DNA from: Astropecten irregularis
Taxonomy: Eukaryota; Echinodermata; Asteroidea; Paxillosida; Astropectinidae
Assembly: GCA_963971285.1 (NCBI GenBank)
Contig: OZ020262.1
Location: forward strand, 9,306,745 to 9,370,744
Reading direction: 5' to 3'
DNA length: 64,000 bases
Below, one piece after another: positions 8,753-59,746 of this stretch; position 1 is the stretch's first letter, and every line of letters begins with the position of its first letter. The notes beneath the pieces are model-generated. The model saw only the letters and a list, made by a program, of their open reading frames with translations, ran no database searches and was not told the origin of the DNA. The translations under genes were made by a program, and so were the position numbers.

Positions 8753-8828
8753 CTGGATAGCTCAGTAGGTAATTAAGTGCCTACATGTACGATATTCAGG
8801 ATATTGCTGGTTCGAATCCCGCTCCAGT
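8753..8828 (+). repeat. tRNA-like segment (SINE head or decayed tRNA)
   Basis: Acceptor-like ends GGCTGGA and TCCAGTC pair with one G-U. A-box TAGCTCAGTAGG and B-box GGTTCGAATCC are both present. The anticodon region is irregular and I cannot assign an isotype, so a tRNA-derived repeat is more likely than a working tRNA gene. Confidence 0.5.
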
Positions 8829-39200: not shown

Positions 39201-42200
39201 CCCGAGCCAGCGCATGATATTTTCATGTGCACTCAACAAGCAGTGCTGATCCACGTCGGTGAAGGGCAAACTTTATTGCATATTATATATCTCCCAACTA
39301 AAATCATTAATATTCAAAACTCAAATCTTAAACATAAAGCTATATCGTTTCTTGTACCAATGGATTTACCATGGGTTGCTCAGGTGTCTTTACCTTAATT
39401 GATTGATTACACCTGTCATTTCATTCAATACACCTGTTTGTATCTGTCGTCAACCTACAGGTGAAGATACCTTTCCTCAAGCTGTTTCTGTACTCATCGG
39501 ATGGTTGGATCGCGGAGACTGCAAGAAACAAACGGCTAATAGTTTCTTCTCTCTTGTCCAAGCTGCATTCAGGTAAACTAGCAAGTTTGAAATATATCAA
39601 CTCAACGTCAAGAAAAGCTATCAGATTGGTTATCCAGCTGCTTGTGGATGTGTCAAATCAGAATTTTGTAGATAGATGACCTGAATTCTACCTTATCAAC
39701 AAGGGTTGAACTAGTCTAGAAGCCTTTTCACACTGTCTGCTTTTCGATCCATGTTGAAACCAACCCGGATCCGCCCCGGTTCAGCCTGGCAAGTTTTTTT
39801 AACCGGATCGTAGAGATGCAAAGTTCATACTATGTTTTTGGTGAACCGACTCAAACGACACGGTTCACAGCAAAAAATGCAGTTTGGAACCTTGAACTAC
39901 ATAAAATGTTCTCTAGTTTACCATATTTGACGTCAGAATCTTTGTAGGATTAAATATTCAAGGTGACAGTCACTGTATGAAGCAGGTTAAATTATCAGTC
40001 AATGCACTGGATGCCAGGAATTTACGGATACAGCAACTTCATCGTTACCGAAACATGAACTAGTCTGACCCGAAAGAGGCGAGTATTACAGAGGGAAGAG
40101 GTGGTGATGCTATCATTTGGTTGGTTGTTTGTACGTGAACTCTCTCCAATCATCCATCAACAGTCAAACGAGACGACTGTCCATGGAAAAACAACGTCTT
40201 GACGATCAGATCAAGGCAATGACCGAAATGGCCCGCAAACAGACCGGCGACATCTTCACGCAATGTAAGTAAAAGTCATGTATGTATTGACATTGTTCCA
40301 CGATAATGGCCGGGAATTAAGTCACCAAGATCCATTATTACGAGCACTAAAAAGAGATTTCCAACGGTATGCGACACTTAGGGGCCTTTTTCAAACCTTG
40401 GCTCCGGCTCAGGCTGCAGCTCAGGCTTCAGCTTAGGCTCTGGCTCCGGCTCCAGCTGCGGCTCTGGCTCTGGCTCTGGCTCTGGCTCAGGTTCCATTTC
40501 GTGAATCCATTCTTAAATGACGGGTATCAAAATAGAGGCTTTTGGCTGGGGTTCGGAAGTAGATTCTCTGGTTTGAACAAGAAAACAGAGCTTCAGCTTC
40601 AGTGAAAAACTACATCCTAGTTTTTCAGCATATAGACGACAGAGCCGGAGCCGGAGCCGAGGTTTGGATGAGGCACTTGGGGTTCTATCTTCCCCTGTCT
40701 GTTGAGTCCTGAGACAATTTAGGAGAGTTTGACAGGGTAAGTCAATAGGATGTTGCCATTGAATAGATGGACAGGCTATGATGACTTTCCACTCATTCTG
40801 TGGAACTATGTCACATATAATGCATAGCTTGGTAGATCCTTGTAAGCAGATCTGTGTGACGTCATGTTGCAATAGTCTCAAGACTAAACCAGTATTACAT
40901 GATGTGAACCGAAATTTATCCAAGTCCAAAGAATGTGCCATTGGGATACTGCACAGTGTGGTATTTTGAAGGATACAGGACTGTAGAGCCCAGGCACTGT
41001 AACTTTATATGGGGTTGATGGCCCAACTTGGCCCAAGCCCAAAGAATGTACCATAGGGATACTGCACAGTGTGGTATTTTGAAGGATACAGGACTGTAGA
41101 GCCCAAGCACTGTAACTTTATATGGGGCTTGATGGCCCAACTTGGTCCAAGCCCAAAGAATGTACCATAGGGATACTGCACAGTGTGGTATTTTGAAGGA
41201 TACAGGACTGTAGGGCCCAGGCACTGTAACTTTATATGGGGCTTGATAGCCCAACTTGGTCCAAGCCCAAAGAATGTACCATAGGGATACTGCACAGTGT
41301 GGTATTTTGAAGGATACAGGACTATAGGGCCCAGGCACTGTAACTTTATATGGGGTTTGATGGCCCAACTTGGTCCAGGTCCAAAGAATGTGCCATAGGG
41401 ATACTGCACAGTGTGGTATTTTGAAGGATACAGGACTGTAGAGCCCAAGCACTGTAACTTCATATGAGACTTGATGGCCCAACTTGGTCCAAGCCCAAAG
41501 AATGTACCATAGGGATACTGCACAGTGTGGTATTTTGAAGGATACAGGACTATAGGGCCCAGGCACTGTAACTTTATATGGGGTTTGATGGCCCAATTTA
41601 GACCAAGTCCAAAGAATGTGCCATAGGGATACTGCACAGTGTGGTATTTTGAAGGATACAGGACTGTAGAGCCCAAGCACTGTAACTTTATATGGGGTTG
41701 ATGGCCCAACTTGGTCCAAGCCCAAAGAATGTGCCACATGGATACTGCATAGTGAGTTATAGGAGAACACAGAACTGTATCTTCCCAGGAACTGTCGTTT
41801 TATGTTAGGGTTGATAACAGTATTAAAGAAGAACGATAGTAATGATATATTTAGATGATGATAATAATAATGGTTACTTATATAGCGCAATATCCACAGA
41901 AGTGCTCAAAGCGCTTGAAAGAAGTGAAAATGGAAATACAGTGTAATACAAAGTAGAGAACAATGTCTGCACAATATACAACAGAACAAACTACTTGTAT
42001 GCAAAATGAAAAAGATGTGACTTTAGAGTATTTAAGGTAGGAGCACAAAGTGTATCTGAATCCTTGATAAGAGGTTGTTGCACATGATACATACATTGAT
42101 ATCCCATGATCTTGATTTGCATGTAAATAATACACTAGAGGAGTTTAAACACTTTGGTTCTTTAAGATGCAAGGAACAGTAGTTCCTTGATAGCATCCTA

Positions 42201-51212: not shown

Positions 51213-54200
51213 TTACCTTGGAGCCTGCTGCTGTGAAGTTGTTTGGTGGATTGCGTTGCGTTTGATGAATGTATTGATGAAGGCAACGATGCCGTCAAGT
51301 CGTTCCCTCTTCAGGAAGTCCAAGTACGTGTCTTTCTCCGAGGATCGGATCAAGCTGGGATGTACCTTCTTGCCCTCGGGTTGTGTCTGAAGTAAAAACA
51401 CGACAAAATCGACAAGGTTAAGTAGTTGGATGGGTAATGGAGAGATCGATAAAGAAGGACAGTCCATTGCTGGTTTGCTGTGGAGCAGGATACTCCTTCA
51501 AGTGCTACTCATACTGTCAAGATGCCATCGATCCGCAAAATGAGGTTTCCAACACCACAGAGTTGGTGGCATTGCCTTCCTAAGGTACCCCTTCCAGTCC
51601 TTTTATAGAACCGAAAGTCTTGTTTAAGGGACTAGTTTCTCCACATCATAGGGGTGGAGGCATTCATTGCTGCCATGCTGTGGACTAGGTACCCCTTCCA
51701 GTCCTATTTATACTGTGAAGAGACCATCAGTGTAAGGGACTGGTTTCTCCACATCATAGGGGTGGAGGCAATAACTGCTACCTTGCTGTGGACCGGGTAC
51801 CCCCTTCAAGTGGTTGAGGTGCCCCTCCCAGTCCACACATTTAAAAGATCATCAGAATTCTTGCTTCTGATGAACATCTCCACTTGCTAGATCTTGGACT
51901 CACCTCTTGCAAGAAGTTATCGGCAAAGGGTAGCATAGCCATATGTAGATGTATAGAGAATGCTTCGTTGATGTGTTTGACACCTGTTGTCTGGAGCGAT
52001 GCTAACGGGATATTGAATACTTTGGTCTTGTTAGCGTGGATGAAGGCTTTGTTTCTCCAGAGAGCGTTGCTAAGATCCAGGATGTACTGGTTCAACAGCT
52101 GAATGCCATCTCTCATGTTGCTCTGAAAGGAACGAGTTAGACAATGAATTGACCTTGTTCAAACGACATCTAGTACCCAGAGTTCTACATGACAGTTACC
52201 ATTGTTGTAGGAAAGCTTAATCCAGGTGCCTGCTTCATTTTTAGTCTGTTGTAGCTTACACTGTTCGGTATGATAATGATAATATCAATTTATTTTATTG
52301 CGCGCTTATCCGGAAACCCTACCAAGGAGCTCAACATTAAATATTATCCCTGGTCATTGGACTACATACATCCCTGAAACCATCTCAACTCCTTGGGGAG
52401 TATACATCCCCGACAGCTGTAAGCGCGTGTGCAAAGGCTAATCAAGCACAAAGCCATATCTACCCTTGTAGGTACCCATTTACACCTTGGTGAAGAGAAG
52501 CAATATGTGACAAAGCATTTTGTCCAAGGATGCAAGTCCTGGCTGGGTTTGAACCCACAATCTGTAGATTGACTACAAGATCTTGAGTACGACATGCCAG
52601 ACCACTAGGCCACGGCACCCCATAGGAATATTGTAGTCAATTTCTATTTTGATTCTAGGATAAATGTGACTCTTACCGTGAACAAGCTGTCCGAATCTTC
52701 AATGGACACCATCTTCTTCAAAGCTTGAAACTCTTCCTTGTAACTACAGAAAGAATCAAACGAAACAGAGATTTGTCATCAAAAGCCCTTATCGATATGA
52801 TGCTACCATGCTACCTTAGTCCAAAGAATGTGCCATATGGATACTGCACAGTGTGTTATTGTGAAGGACACAGGACTGTAGATCCCAGGCACTGTAGCTT
52901 TATATGGGGGCTTGATGGCTCAACTTGGTCCAGGTCCAAAGAATGTACCATAGGGATACTGCAGTGTGGTATTTGAAGGATACAGGACTGTAGAGCCCAG
53001 GCACTATAGCTTTATATGAAGCTTGATGGCCCAACTTGGTCCAAGTCCATAGAATGTGCCATAGGGATACTGTACAGTGTGGTATTATGAAGGACACATG
53101 ACTGTAGAGCCCAGGCACTGTAGCTTTATATGAAGCTTGATGGCCCAACTTGGTCCAAGTCCATAGAATGTGCCATAGGGATACTGTACAGTGTGGTATT
53201 TCGAAGGACACAGGACTGTAGAGCCCAGGCACTGTAACTTCATATGGGGGCTTGATGACCAAACTTGGTCCAAGTCCAAAGAATGTGCCATAGGGATACT
53301 GTACAGTGTGGTATTTCGAAGGACACAGGACTGTAGAGCCCAGGCACTGTAACTTTACATGGGGCTTGACAACCCAACGTGGTGAAAGTCCAAAGAATGT
53401 GCCATAGGGATACTGTACATTGCTGAACTTTGGTAGATTGCCGAAGGATCTCAGCTAGGTAGCCCACTAGGGTGAAGGTTGTGGTGCATTGAACAGGTGG
53501 ATATAACTCACTTGCAGATGATCCTACACAGTCTTGAGCAGACCATAGCATTACTGGCAAACAAAGCTCTGTAGAACGAACCCGATGACGGTACATAGAC
53601 AAACGGCACGCCATACCGTAAATGCAAGCATGACACCTGCAAACAAGATAAAAGAGAAGATCAAACTTAGAGGTGTATGGAGTCGAACCCAAGACCTTTC
53701 TACTGCGTGTCAGGTTCTTTAAACACAAGGTTACTGATAAAATTCCTGTCCTAGGTGAGCTTATAAAGTAAAGTATTCAGTATTGACTTATAAAGTGGAG
53801 CTGAACTGTAGACCGTTTCATTACTTGTCAAGCTTCCCAACCAGTAATTAACTTACACAAGTATACATCAACTGTGGATGGTACTTTCCTGCAAGCAGCA
53901 TCATAGGTCGTATAAATATCACCTATATCGGGACTCGAACCACAAACCGTCCAACTGCCAGTTAAGCACCTCAACCACTATCTGACTTACCAGTTCAAAG
54001 AACTCTAGTACATAATGCATTAAGAGTATGTGATCCTTCTCAATGAGACATGTCATCATGTGGGACTCGAACCACAAACCGTCCAACTGCCAGTTAAGCA
54101 CCTCAATCACTATCATACCTACCAGTTCAAAGACCTCCAGTACATAATGCATTAAGAGTATGTGGTCCTTCATAACGAGTCATGTCATCATGCAGGACTC

Positions 54201-57200
54201 GAACCACAAACCGTCCAACTGCCAGTTAAGCACCTCAACCACTATCCGACTTACCAGTTCAAAGAACTCCAGTACATAATGCATTAAGAGTACGTGGTCC
54301 TTCTCAATGAGTAGTGCCAAGGTGCTTATTCTATCCACGTAGGCCGTCAGTTCCTGAATGGTGTGAAGCGCCTGGAAGTTATCCACCCGCACCTCAAAGA
54401 CCGATACCCTGCAACGAGTCAGGTCAAAGGTCAAGGTTTAAAGGTCAGTGAGTCACCACTTGTAATGAATACACATGACATTTTGTAAGGATTCATGACT
54501 GCATTTAATAATTGTCTTCTCAAAATTCTTCGTTCTGAAGAGTGTACTTCACAATGTGTTTTCAACAGTAAAGTTCAAAGGTCACCCTACAGACGTGAAC
54601 AATCCTCATAAACCTGGGCCCAATATCATGGAATCCCTTAACGGCCTATTTTTGTGCTTACAGGCACTGCTACGCCTGATATCTATTTCATGGAATCCGT
54701 AAGGAAGACTTTCCGTTAGCAAAGAATTTCTACGCTAACCATATACATTCTGCAGAAATTCTGCTTAGCGTAGCGAGAAAGCAAACTCTCCCGTGAAATA
54801 ATTATGCTAAGCAAGAAAGCAAAACAAGTCTGCTTTTGTAAGCGAATATATTTTTGCTAATATGGTAATAGATTCCATGAAATTGGACCGTCAAGACATT
54901 GTTGCGTTACATCACTATCATGTACTTCCATATCCAAGGAGTAATCAAGATAACAATACTGTGTCTTGCTTATACAGATCTTCGAAGAGATGAAAGTTGA
55001 ATGAAACGGAGGAACTCCTTACTGGTTGTACGGCGGTGCATCAATGCCGGCCTGTATAGCAGAGGCCTCGTGTACGGCCTGCATACACACCATGTCCGAG
55101 TGACGTGGAAGCTCGATGGAGACGTAGTTACGAAGGAGCTCGGTCAGGCTAAAGATGACCTGACACTTGAAGAAAACGGAAGAACAGAAGAAGAGCGACC
55201 GAAGGGGCTCAAGGAGAAGGTCGTTCAACTCTGAATCAAGGTAAAAGAAAATCAACCAATCAAACGGATATCATGACCTGGGGTCGATTTCACCAAGCCC
55301 TATCATCGATCGTAACACAGGTTACGAAGGATAACCCATCGTATCTTACGTAGTACTGCAATGCATCCTCAAATCTTTCTTATACTTTATTATTACCCAA
55401 GTTAATAATCATTAAAGGTATAATACACGATTGGTAAAGGTTACAGAGCAGCACTCACACTTCTAATCCATCATGTAAATGAAATTATAAACATGTTACA
55501 ATTTGAGCCCAAACAGACATCTGAGTCACGAGAAAATAGCAATAAACCAATTCAATTTTTCTTGGGAAACATAAAGAATGGTTTTGATCTTACCCCGAGA
55601 TCAAAACTGTTTCCGGTCTTTGTTTGACTAATTTCTATATAAATACATGTACATCATTTCAGGCGGAAATATCTTAACGGTATGTTTCTACCAGCATCAT
55701 CTTCATACCCTGACGTAAATCTGTGAACATTTCTGTTTGGGTATGTTACCAATCCTGTACTGTACCTTTAACCTTAAAAAAAATTATTTTTGTTTGTATC
55801 TTGACTCACTTTGGAAGGGGTAAATTCTAAATCTTGTGATAAGTTTCAGGATGTAAGGCCGGTAATCAAGCCCATTCCATGTATGTAGGTATTTCACCAG
55901 GAAGTTCTCACACACGGGAACATCTTCCTATCGGGAGAAAAAGAATTAGACATATTTTATCCTCCTTGGTGATTAAGTCCGACAATTTGTCTGACATTTT
56001 GAGAAAAGTACTATCGTCTTATTTTGAACTCAAATTTAATACTGAGGAAAAGTTAATTTTGTTTCAGTATAATTAGACAAAGACCATTTGGATCCTAGCA
56101 GGATCTTTCTCTAAAGCAACTGATTTTTCCATCTGACCGAGGGCCACTTTCATGGAGCTGCTTAAGCACAAAATGTGTTTAAGTTGAAAAGTCTTCCTTG
56201 ATCAAACAGGATTACCAACCAAATGTTCATGTGACGTTCACTGCTTTTGACTTGTATTCTGGCATTGTTTGCTGAGCATGACATTCACAAGGAGTTTTGG
56301 TTGGCATACTGATTTTATTGACCAAGGTTTTTTTGAGCTTAAGCAGCTCTATGAAATTGGACCCCTGGACATGAAGCTAAAAAGTACCATTAGGGAAGAT
56401 CCTGCTAGGATTGAGCAGGCTCCTCTAACTCTGAGCATTACATATATCTAGTTGACCTACTGGATGGGTAGTTTGCAGCAGTTTCGACACTCGTATGAAA
56501 ACAAAAACTTACGTGAAGGAAATCAGTGAAATTGATGAGCATCTGTAAGAGACGTTCCGCTCTGGAATTGTGCCCTTCTAAGGAATGATCAAATAGCTCT
56601 ACAAAAAGAAAACAAAAGTAGGAAGAAAAATCCAACAAAATTACTTTTTTAGAACTTTGTTCTTTAGACGGCAATGAAATTAGAAGGAAAGAGATTATTG
56701 GGAATTCAAAATTTATAATAAGTTAACGAGTTTGACTTTTAACAATTCTTTAATTTGCAGTGGAACGCCACAATAACGAACACCGCTATACCGATCATTT
56801 GGCTATACCGAACATCATCCTTGGCTCCCAATTTGTGTGTACAATACATACTGAATATGGTTCTTAAATCACTATGAGAAACGACCACTATGACGGATAA
56901 TATATGTGCATCCTGCCATTTTCGTTCAATTCACTTTGAATGGGATATACTGGTAGACAGCTACCTACATTCTCTCAGCAGAATTTGTCTTTGCTTAATG
57001 GCTTATTGAGTGTGCTTAGCTGATTTAGTGTGCTTTATAGCAAATTCAGTGTGCTAAATAGCAACTAAAGTGTGCTTAACGATTTATTGCACTCAATTGG
57101 GACTTCAGTGCACACAGCAACTTTAGTCTGCTTATCAACTTAAATGTGCTTAGCGACTTTAGTGTGCTTAGCACTGATGCTATGATTCTTGCTTACCTTG

Positions 57201-58427
57201 ATGCAGGACTTGATACAGCCAGAAGCTGAGTCGTTGCACTACATGTTTCTCAGAGTGACAGCAGATTGCATGTTGAAGGTACGGTGAGTCTAGGACCGCC
57301 GCTATTTGACATGGAAGCTACAATCATCAAATAACATTCACAATTAAGAATCATATTATTGCCTCAAGTAAATTACAATTCTAATTTAATGAAATAAAAT
57401 CAAGATGTATTACCTCTAATCGGTCCATGTTCTCCAACAGATCCTCAAATGACTTGATGTGTTGGATTGGTACCCTGCCGTGACGAGTACCAGGCAGCTG
57501 GTAACCTGCATCCCCTTTGCCATCTAATGACGACAGCAACGATGGAGTCACCGTCGGGATGACGTCCATCTTCCTCCTCTTTGCACTCTAAGCGGACAGC
57601 GAAAGATTACAGATCGAGGTTAATTCTTAATAAAGATGGAGAGTCAGATTCATAAAGCTGCTAAGCACCAAAATTTGCTTAAGCATGAAAAGTCTTCCTT
57701 CATCAAACATGATTACCAACAAATTTTTTATGTGATGTTCACTGCTTTTGACTTGTATTCGGCCATTGTTTGCTGAGCATAACATTCACAATGCGTTTTG
57801 GCTGGCATACTGATTTCATTTACCAAGGTTTTTGGTGCTTAAGCAAATTTTGGTGCTTAAGAAGCTCAACGTAATTGGCCCCCGGTGTTGTATTATGCTG
57901 AACCTTGAATTCTTAGGCGTACAGCAACAATATTCTCACCACTCTGGTCTTAGTGACGGAGCTCTGTAACCGTTCCATAGCTGGATCAGGCCCCGCCCCA
58001 GGATTACGAATCCTCCCTTTCGCCTTGTACACCTCCCCGGACCACACCCTGTCAGACTGACGGAAGTACACCCTCTGGGTTGGCGGAGCCACTAAAGAGA
58101 CAAGGTTTGGGCGGTACATCTTGAAGACGGAGAGTAAACCAGTGATGTAAGGTTGCACTCCCTGCATAAACAGAAAACAAACAACATGTAGTCAAATTTC
58201 CGAGTTTGAAGTTAGTAAGTTACTGCTCGGACTAAAGAATTGATGAATTTCAAAGAAACATTCTTCAATGGGGCTCCGGCTCCATTTCGTGAATCCATTC
58301 TAAAATAATGGGTATCAAACTAGAGGCTTTTGGCTGCGGTTCAGAAGTAGATTCTCTGGTTTGAAAATGAAAACCGAGCTTCAGCTTGGTTTTCATTTTC
58401 ATATTTTCAGCATGTGGATGACAGAGA

Positions 58428-58462
<35 letters not shown>

Positions 58463-59746
58463 GCGAGCTTTGAGAAAGGCCCCTACTTTACTCACCACTC
58501 TCTTCTGCAGACTAAGAAGCCGCTGGACTCTGAAGGCTAACACGTCTTCTTTTCTCGTCAGAAGATAGAGCAGATGACAGACGTGTGGACACTAGAGGGC
58601 GACAGATACAAAATATTTTCGTCAACGCTGAGAAAAATATCATTTGACGTTTTTAACTACATTTTATAACCCATCATTCTGTGCAGTACGCAGAGGCTAC
58701 CTACCAGAGTGTCATTCTCGATGAAGTGGAACAGGATACCATACAATGCATGCAGGTCATCGAGGTCATCCAGGAGGTCATAGGTCAAAATCATCCATCT
58801 CATTAGCAGGCTCTGCGATGTACCAAAAGAATTGATATATCAATATCAATATCGATGTTGTCAACGCACAGTGTGAATATGCGAGTCGTCTGTTAATGAA
58901 TGAACAAGGTAGAGGTACCTGGATTTCATTGGATGGGGTGTTGGTGCACATCCAAGACACTGCCTTAACCACCGCATCCTTTGGAATCTTGTCCGTCGGT
59001 AACAAGCTCTTGATCAGACGAGAGTTGACCGAGTCGGCTGAGGAATTAAAAAATGTCAACCAACATGTTTACGGTAATCACTTTGAAATGAAATAAAATT
59101 GATGAGCAATCACTGTGGTATTAAACAAAGATTTCTGTTTCGGTATGCTACCAAAGTATGAAAGTAGCTCTAAGAAAGTGTCTGAATTTCTCTTGGTCAG
59201 AAGTTTCAACTATCAGTTCTACTCACGGAACTTTGAGGATGCTGCCACGTCAACGAGCTGACATATGACCTCTGCTGACAACCCTTCCGTCTTGGATGTC
59301 GTTTCAATCTTCTGAATGGCCAGCGTCAAGGCGGGATTGCTGCGAACTTTGACCTTAGCACCTTCAACGGATACAACAGTCATCCAAATATGCGGTTAAA
59401 AATGATGACAAAGTAGTAATTATGGAAATAATTCCCGGACAAGTGGTGTCTTAAAGGTAATTTCATACTGGTTTTTGTCAAAGAAATGCAGATCCATGAA
59501 CTTGAACTGATGCAAATTGAGAGATATCCTTATAAGTTGTAGTATAATCCTTCCATTCATAATGCGGCAGAATTTACTGCCAGGGCTAATGTTCTTTTGA
59601 GTTGAACCACCAGGTCCAGACTCACCACTTGTGAAGAATCGGACAGCTTCGCGGATCGAGTACGTGTCCATTTTCTCCGCAGATTTCACTTTGGTTGTGC
59701 CGCTTTGATGAATCGGTGACTTGCGTCGAGACACTGGAGTCTCCAT
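51213..59746 (-). CDS. CENPI: Centromere protein I (Mis6-like CCAN subunit)
   Basis: Sixteen coding exons in transcript order: 59746-59626, 59361-59227, 59037-58919, 58812-58705, 58591-58496, 58161-57940, 57587-57414, 57317-57197, 56598-56513, 55927-55810, 55230-55023, 54408-54255, 53636-53512, 52743-52677, 52122-51904, 51386-51213. Phases join throughout, giving 748 aa (human CENP-I is 756). CENP-I is the helical-repeat scaffold of the CENP-H/I/K/M complex in the inner kinetochore. Recognised blocks: KDAVVKAVSWMC, CPHVCHLLYLLTRKEDV, FRVQRLLSLQ, GVQPYITGLLSVFK, RVYFRQSDRVW, RLSFWLYQVL, KYLHTWNGLDYRPYILKLI, VFFKCQVIFSLTELLRNYV, DHVLLMHYVLEFFEL, GSFYRALFAS. The segment after VCSRLCRIIC is about 20 residues shorter than in human. 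The last exon ends in a Gln-rich tail. Most introns longer than about 300 bp hold recognisable repeats. Confidence 0.95.
51475..51850. repeat. About 106-bp tandem repeat in CENPI intron 15
   Basis: Three or more units share GTTTCTCCACATCATAGGGG, TGGAGGCA and GTACCCCTTCCAGTCC, with spacings of 104 and 108 bp between phase points 51585, 51689 and 51797. The first unit is degraded. Confidence 0.8.
52270..52625 (-). repeat. tRNA-derived SINE in CENPI intron 14
   Basis: On the minus strand the head has GGTGCCGTGGCCTAGTGG and GGGTTCAAACC, and the body TCACATATTGCTTCTCTTCAC and GTGTAAATGGGTACC. It extends into a tail with GCGCGCAATAAA-type sequence. Same family as 37165-37415, in sense with CENPI. 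Confidence 0.82.
52815..53425. repeat. 114-bp satellite array in CENPI intron 13
   Basis: Six units with phase points 52823, 52938, 53049, 53163, 53278 and 53392 (spacing 111-115). Same unit as the ENOX intron 7 array. Confidence 0.95.
53991..54312 (-). repeat. 132-bp tandem duplication of the CENPI exon 12 end and splice donor
   Basis: The 3' end of exon 12 (encoding EKDHVLLMHYVLEFFEL) plus donor plus about 75 bp of intron occurs three times, at exactly 132-bp spacing (exon-like ends 54255, 54123, 53991). Donors read GTAAGT, GTAGGT and GTAAGT. The intronic part carries tRNA-like boxes TAGTGGTTGAGG and GGTTCGAGTCC. Only the copy ending at 54255 adjoins the full exon and its acceptor. Confidence 0.93.
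54616..54893. repeat. MITE with CATGGAATC ends in CENPI intron 11
   Basis: GGGCCCAATATCATGGAATC at the left and GATTCCATGAAATTGGACC at the right. Related to 49938-50098 by TTTTTGTGCTTAC and CATGGAATCCGTAAG. The ends look like a variant of family B. Confidence 0.75.
56085..56440. repeat. Family B MITE nested in an inverted copy pair of the 56-bp unit
   Basis: GGATCCTAGCAGGATCTTTC at about 56090 and the inverted GAAGATCCTGCTAGGATTGA at about 56395 flank a family B element (56146-56368). Lies in CENPI intron 9. Confidence 0.78.
56757..56950. mobile_element. Empty-site copy of the TA-flanked pogo-like MITE
   Basis: Begins CAGTGGAACGCCACAATAACG and runs collinear with 46504-46614 plus 47038-47100, lacking the TTAA element. 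The right end has diverged. Confidence 0.82.
56990..57172. repeat. Degenerate short tandem repeat in CENPI intron 8
   Basis: About eight imperfect repeats of a 20-24 bp unit built on GTGTGCTTAGCGACTTTA, ending about 25 bp from the exon 8 donor at 57196. Confidence 0.8.
57645..57880. repeat. Family B MITE in CENPI intron 6
   Basis: CATAAAGCTGCTAAGCACC at the left and GCTTAAGAAGCTCAACGTAA TTGGCCCC at the right, with the standard interior. It accounts for about two thirds of the intron. Confidence 0.8.
58270..58483. repeat. Family A MITE abutting the CENPI exon 5 donor
   Basis: On the minus strand GGGGCCTTTCTCAAAGCTCG starts 12 bases into intron 5 (exon 5 ends at 58496). A GGCTCC run and the core follow. 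The far end is truncated at GGGGCTCCGGCTCCATTTCG. Confidence 0.88.

Follow-up and report, generated by a model that had tools for sequence, protein, structure and literature searches.

The window analysed here, a stretch of 64,000 nucleotides (nt) from the sea star Astropecten irregularis (GenBank assembly GCA_963971285.1, contig OZ020262.1, positions 9,306,745 to 9,370,744 of the forward strand), holds on its minus strand a gene for the kinetochore protein CENP-I, in which the end of coding exon 12 and the beginning of the following intron are repeated in tandem (Table 1; positions are those of the window). The gene model is a prediction from sequence alone, and some of its exon ends are uncertain, for example at exon 2, where the acceptor is weak (score -4.1). 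The modelled protein matches the CENP-I family Pfam PF07778 with 371 bits, against a cut-off of 23 (E = 1.3e-110), and PDB chains named Centromere protein I, which we take to be human, with E = 1.2e-114. Across the junction between exons 12 and 13 made with the first of the repeated donors, the alignment to PDB Centromere protein I runs without a gap. The other 15 exons of the model measure 67–222 nt, and the shortest intron is 96 nt. When the whole assembly (475.7 Mb, 168 contigs) was searched with a probe made from exons 12 and 13, four places matched, namely exon 12, exon 13, and two repeat copies, and no second CENPI gene was seen with this probe.

The repeated unit of 132 bp consists of the final 57 nt of exon 12 and the initial 75 nt of intron 12. 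In the order of transcription, the units start at 54311, 54179, and 54047, and a second repeat finder agrees with Tandem Repeats Finder (TRF) in giving three copies with spacings of 132 and 132. Unit 3 is incomplete, as its intron part is 62 nt long compared with 75 nt in units 1 and 2; the final 13 nt are missing and the similarity ends at about 53929. Units 1 and 2, and likewise units 2 and 3, are joined by these 13 nt, CATGATGACATGW. No source for the join was found in the window, where an extended 15-mer of it has one exact match, the unit 2/3 join, and, with up to three mismatches, 10 matches, of which two are the joins, where 5.8 would be expected. The part of exon 12 above the repeat, together with its acceptor, is present once, and unit 1 alone is continuous with it. 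When the locus was compared with itself by blastn, the exon-side repeats were returned with E values of 1.8e-27 and 1.4e-22, which excludes a chance origin of the repeat, and in a search of the whole genome the array is found at a single place in the assembly.

The copies differ from each other in both parts of the unit. In pairwise comparison, copies 1 and 2, 1 and 3, and 2 and 3 differ at 5, 3, and 6 of the 57 exon positions, and at 6, 2, and 5 of the 62 shared intron positions, respectively. The total for a pair is 5–11 of 119 sites, or 4–9%, a divergence that makes a recent event or a slip in the assembly less likely. Within the 119 nt common to all copies, eight unique changes fall in copy 2 and two each in copies 1 and 3, while one site is different in all three. 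Four of the unique changes in copy 2 fall in the exon part and replace three amino acids (I to V, E to M, and F to V). For comparison, the 171 single changes possible in the exon piece comprise 129 missense, 34 silent, and 8 stop changes. Copies 2 and 3 together have 18 donor positions, of which one is changed, compared with about 0.8 changes expected from their unique changes (arithmetic by hand). The divergence of copies 2 and 3 within the array looks neutral; the changes are few.

Scored with a matrix built from the other 14 donors of CENPI, donors 1, 2, and 3 reach 11.5, 8.2, and 11.5, and are the three best of the 62 GT sites in the stretch scored, where the next site has 6.1. The nine bases of donor 2 are identical to those of the CENPI exon 4 donor. 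The acceptor of exon 13 at 53636 scores 15.6 and ranks first among the 42 AG sites from 54250 to 53636; the matrix consists of CENPI's own acceptors, and with 53636 left out of it the score is 10.3. The next AG sites, with 7.9 at 53888 and 5.2 at 53851, are both located in the intron below the array, whereas those in the intron parts of the units reach up to 1.1, and those inside or at the edges of exon copies 2 and 3 range from -4.0 to -10.0. Two AG sites at 54086 (-0.4) and 54101 (-0.7) would, together with donor 3, delimit open in-frame cassettes of 96 and 111 nt, and rank below 14 of the 15 CENPI acceptors, the exception being that of exon 2. The layout predicted from these scores is chiefly one acceptor facing three donors, plus a weak cassette possibility.

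Three isoforms were built, one for each donor. The product of donor 1 has 748 residues. Donors 2 and 3 add 132 and 264 nt in frame, run into the TGA at 54182–54180, and both give 578 residues, i.e., the 554 codons up to the end of exon 12 followed by 24 extra codons. The codon in unit 2 that matches this TGA is TGT, and the frame from unit 2 to unit 3 is open. Below the TGA there are four exon junctions, the nearest at 57 nt with donor 2 or 189 nt with donor 3. A stop codon located farther upstream of a junction than 50–55 nt makes a message a substrate of nonsense-mediated decay (NMD), and by this rule the donor 2 and 3 messages are predicted NMD substrates. In 25 random in-frame codons, however, the chance of at least one stop is 0.70, and the TGA is therefore no sign of design. 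With donor 1, exon 12 is 154 nt long and within the range of the other exons, whereas donors 2 and 3 would extend it to 286 and 418 nt, outside this range; since the exon has a normal size with donor 1 only, donor 1 should be favoured by exon definition.

A preliminary description of this DNA had named the gene, the exon number, and the coordinates, all of which agree with homology and sequence, the number 12 being that of the hand-made model. Its tripled 132-bp exon end with donors is recovered by both repeat finders and by the alignment of the units, which also confirms the TGA of unit 1 and the TGT of unit 2. The proposed arrangement of one acceptor at 53636 and three donors is matched by the site scores, although the weak cassette option had not been mentioned, and the premature stop expected from the downstream donors is present in the built isoforms in an NMD-type position. 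The picture of three equal copies, each with a tRNA-like piece, holds in part: the repeats and donors are as described, but unit 3 is incomplete, and the term tRNA-like is weaker than it had seemed.

Table 1. Features of the CENPI locus and other arrays (window positions unless a contig is given).
Feature	Position	Strand	Description
CENPI gene model	51213..59746	-	16 coding exons, 748 aa; placed by hand by GT/AG, phase, and homology
CENPI exon 12	54255..54408	-	154 nt; acceptor TTGCAG/G, donor CTG/GTAAGT; phases fit
CENPI exon 13	53512..53636	-	Acceptor at 53636
Boundary-spanning tandem array	53929..54311	-	132-bp unit, 2.9 copies, 383 bp; TRF score 661, 90% matches
Unit 1, exon part	54255..54311	-	Authentic copy of the repeated exon end, 57 nt
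Unit 1, intron part	54180..54254	-	Donor 1 GTAAGT at 54254 (CTG/GTAAGT, 54255/54254), tRNA-like piece, in-frame TGA 54182-54180
Unit 2	54048..54179	-	Exon copy 54179-54123, donor 2 GTAGGT at 54122 (CTG/GTAGGT, 54123/54122), tRNA-like piece, TGT instead of TGA
Unit 3	53929..54047	-	Exon copy 54047-53991, donor 3 GTAAGT at 53990 (CTG/GTAAGT, 53991/53990), tRNA-like piece
Second B-box-like motif GGTTCGANTCC	53679..53689	-	Pattern scan; same intron 12, outside the array
114-bp-unit array	52818-53419		CENPI intron 13, 92 nt from exon 13
Array L048:941-1517	Contig C19 near 383935		7.0 x 82 bp; acceptor-type array at DDX23/PRP28 exon
Array L042:188-1430	Contig C22		13.6 x 91 bp minisatellite; about 75 nt separate its end from the following exon, in a helicase-like gene

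Tandem repeats of this kind are known from amphioxus under the name of mirages, and have been described in Adh3, the globins BflGb6 and BflGb9, and TnC (PMC3087553, PMC3902484), as well as in PGBD5 (PMC3902484). As in the amphioxus mirages, the CENPI repeat lies over an exon/intron boundary and has splice signals in its units. The unit sizes are of a similar order, with 132 bp in CENPI, 150–160 and 157 bp in the globins, 60 and 108 bp in PGBD5, and 10–72 bp in Adh3; the 157-bp unit in BflGb9 is a duplicate of an exon 3' boundary (PMC3087553). Other features of a mirage are also present, in that the repeat is minisatellite-like, the donor is repeated in all three units, and, according to the predicted gene model, the authentic boundary is at the edge of the array with the duplicates in the intron. 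Unlike the amphioxus cases, the host is an echinoderm, the gene is CENPI, and the array is known from assembly sequence alone. Among the matches listed in the open-licence literature, no title names an echinoderm mirage, and the CENPI array is best filed as a putative mirage in a new animal group, as far as these literature searches reach. Reverse transcription PCR of the amphioxus globins suggests that regular splicing is undisturbed (PMC3087553), although the splice signals in such repeats are also described as potential cryptic sites (PMC3087553, PMC3902484).

Other genes of the genome were surveyed for similar arrays in 65 fetched loci, comprising 30 of the 106 Helicase_C matches, all 22 AAA matches, all 11 globin matches, and the CENPI loci L027 and L028; loci L001–L004, L016–L026, L029, and L030 are outside the survey. 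Ten loci on contigs above C30, which are small and bacterial-looking, were dropped, leaving 55, of which 53 are non-CENPI. The globin loci overlap, and some matches are in long open frames with no nearby exon end. BLAST for copies of at least 30 nt at 80% identity or more returned CENPI exon 12 and five globin loci, where the matches are whole matched exons or most thereof within the globin gene cluster; by the same thresholds, 15 of the 16 CENPI exons are without a copy within 3 kb. TRF, which scored the best candidates only and for which periods of at least 20 near the matched exons were considered, gave six rows in four loci, the two of CENPI, L042, and L048. Only L048, one of the 53 non-CENPI loci, has an array that crosses a boundary. 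All seven of its units carry CTTGTAG/TATAATGC, with the acceptor placed by AG and homology, and the exon is identified by PDB 4nho (E = 1.2e-24) as that of DDX23/PRP28. The exon part of this array is only about 9 nt, and it was missed by BLAST. The 82-bp unit is no multiple of three, and most of the upstream acceptors would shift the frame. Since minisatellites near exons recur in this genome, no special cause is required for one of them to cross a boundary. Together, the two arrays suggest that mirages may also be found in echinoderms, here as both a donor type and an acceptor type within a single genome.

Based on these observations, we consider the CENPI array to be a near-neutral mirage in which donor 1 is mainly used and leakage is cleared by NMD, a reading to which we assign a probability of about 0.75. 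A minisatellite-like tandem duplication would have happened to span the 3' boundary of exon 12. The first duplication would have fused the intron to the exon at a point 57 nt ahead of the donor, with CATGATGACATGW as a 13-nt filler at the join, and because the join is shared between units, the third unit probably arose by later unequal exchange. The spliceosome would mainly pick donor 1 because this donor defines an exon of normal size, and among the three it is the sole choice that gives full-length CENP-I; as no second CENPI gene is seen, splicing at donor 1 must be sufficient. Low-level leakage would probably occur at donors 2 and 3, both of which are intact, and the leaked messages, with a stop after 24 extra codons, would be removed by NMD, which would leave the array nearly neutral. 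NMD has been argued to protect new introns that are spliced imperfectly, with selection acting against introns of 3n length that lack a stop (PMC2809761); by analogy, a 132-nt unit with a stop would fit this view.

Several points speak against a near-neutral mirage with donor 1 in use. The use of donor 1 is itself deduced from the DNA, and U1 pairing, calculated with what we take to be the 5' end of U1, is strongest at donor 2 (-10.7 kcal/mol versus -9.1 kcal/mol at donors 1 and 3). The two unique exon changes in copy 3 are both silent, which is the direction expected under constraint, although two changes prove nothing. The precedents for mirages come from amphioxus and not from echinoderms, and the 53 loci surveyed are few and not independent of each other. 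It has also been noted that repeated splice signals in mirages could yield alternative, possibly aberrant, transcripts (PMC3087553). In addition, of two competing donors, SRSF1 favours the intron-proximal one and hnRNP A1 has the opposite effect (work cited in PMC5585400); the intron-proximal donor in CENPI is donor 3, which has the same score as donor 1. Competing donors are also known from intron 4 of DOK7, where two sites are located 11 nt apart and regulation was tested (PMC5585400). There, as in CENPI, the donors share a single acceptor, and just one of them leads to the full protein, but the full product in DOK7 comes from the intron-proximal site, whereas full-length CENP-I would require the intron-distal donor. 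CENPI also differs from DOK7 in having three sites 132 nt apart in near-identical surroundings, read from genomic sequence, and amounts to a natural duplicated-splice-site experiment with the full product from the intron-distal donor, in which RNA-seq would reveal the weight of position in donor choice and the masking of leakage by NMD.

Among the alternatives, the array may serve as raw material with no present regulation, such that leakage could become an in-frame insertion of 44 or 88 residues if the stop were lost. The frame between units 2 and 3 is already open, and mirage repeats have been suggested to give rise to new exons and introns (PMC3087553), but the stop is present in unit 1, and an insertion would interrupt the gap-free alignment to PDB Centromere protein I; we regard this alternative as unlikely. 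Intron gain by tandem genomic duplication in potato RdRp (PMC4974935) is likewise an intragenic tandem duplication linked to splice signals; unlike the potato case, the CENPI array copies the donor of an existing intron, and nothing shows a new intron. Further removed, and in our judgement improbable, is a CENP-I brake tunable by copy number, where the number of units and the balance of SR and hnRNP proteins would set the dosage of the scaffold, combined with the proposal that boundary minisatellites are a common, overlooked form of splice competition in sea stars. If true, the three near-equal donors would compete for the one acceptor, a TGA message would enter decay each time that donor 2 or 3 is used in place of donor 1, and the donor case in CENPI and the acceptor case in the splicing helicase DDX23/PRP28 would be part of a wider splice-site competition.

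The preliminary description had itself raised a possible decay switch. In such a switch, a change in splicing-factor balance would make donor 2 or 3 replace donor 1, the TGA messages would be destroyed, and CENP-I would be lowered when wanted. The donor strengths, which are equal or near equal, the stop in an NMD position in the donor 2 and 3 products, and the opposing effects of SRSF1 and hnRNP A1 on competing donors (work cited in PMC5585400) are all compatible with a switch. Against it, copies 2 and 3 show no sign of constraint, albeit with few changes, a stop is about 70% likely by chance, and the similar acceptor array, the second boundary array at another gene of this genome, suggests a mutational habit. 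Regular splicing is moreover reported to be undisturbed at the amphioxus mirages, and no open-licence paper was found that joins CENP-I, alternative splicing, nonsense-mediated decay, and the kinetochore. Nothing beyond the layout thus speaks for the switch, which we hold to be very unlikely.

An in-frame cassette that repeats the end of exon 12, extending from 54086 or 54101 to 53991 and encoding 32 or 37 residues, would be in phase 0, open, and terminated by the strong donor 3, and the intron remaining upstream of it would measure 168 or 153 nt, longer than the shortest CENPI intron. It is nevertheless highly improbable given its low-scoring acceptors, the still lower AG sites at the edges of and inside the exon copies, the single occurrence of the exon 12 acceptor and the exon part next to it, and the split that the insertion would introduce in the gap-free alignment. 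Tandem exon duplications with mutually exclusive exons (PMC9013439) have repeated exon sequence in common with the CENPI array, but in CENPI only the exon end is copied, with no exon 12 acceptor, and no whole exon is duplicated. An assembly artefact is equally improbable, for although tandem repeats are prone to misassembly and the array is known from an assembly, its copies differ at 5–11 of 119 sites and its 383 bp lie at a single place inside a 14.56-Mb contig.

The intron part of the array units contains an A-box-like and a B-box-like motif, named after the consensus sequences of these boxes. ARAGORN found no tRNA gene in the units, and Rfam gave nothing at E ≤ 1. The A-box 20-mer, with up to two mismatches, occurs at six places in the genome, three in the array and three elsewhere, and at none in a reversed control. 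One of the places elsewhere, L024, aligns on past the A box through the B box with a score of 31, compared with a maximum of 27 in 1000 shuffled queries, although the test flatters the match because the places were preselected by the 20-mer; the other two score 26 and 25. A recent copy of a short interspersed element was rejected as an origin of the piece, since no close copies were found outside the array in a search that skips common words. B-box-like GGTTCGANTCC motifs occur six times in the window, four of them in CENPI intron 12 and the others at 8809 and 39188, and the cluster in intron 12 suggests that these motifs may be remnants of tRNA-derived repeats.

Units closely similar to those of the 114-bp array in intron 13 are also present at 40919–41754, 11 kb away, and a long open frame across the intron 13 array (52900–53454, minus strand) is probably meaningless. 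Elsewhere in the genome, nine globin matches lie within 15 kb on contig C8 (31230311–31244811), and with several of them 91–98% alike, they are presumably recent tandem genes. The small contigs C131, C47, C48, C57, C71, and others have matches to COX1, AAA, and ABC that lie in long, uninterrupted open frames; they seem to be bacterial, in which case the assembly would include associated bacteria. Of four genetic codes compared for the mitochondrial contig of 16,335 bp, only the echinoderm code, code 9, lets COX1 read STNHKDIGT. ND1 and ND2 (frames read by eye) and 16S (located by primer cores) are on the strand opposite to COX1. The same arrangement is described for the mitochondrial inversion between starfish and sea urchins, where brittle stars group with starfish by gene order (PMC3308324). 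The contig points to an echinoderm and not to amphioxus, and a starfish-type class is likely; GFP searches gave no hits, although they covered no genome known to match the query. A partial COX1 copy with seven TGA codons, on a 14.4-Mb contig (C25:9951047-9952018, L004), is likely a nuclear copy of mitochondrial DNA.

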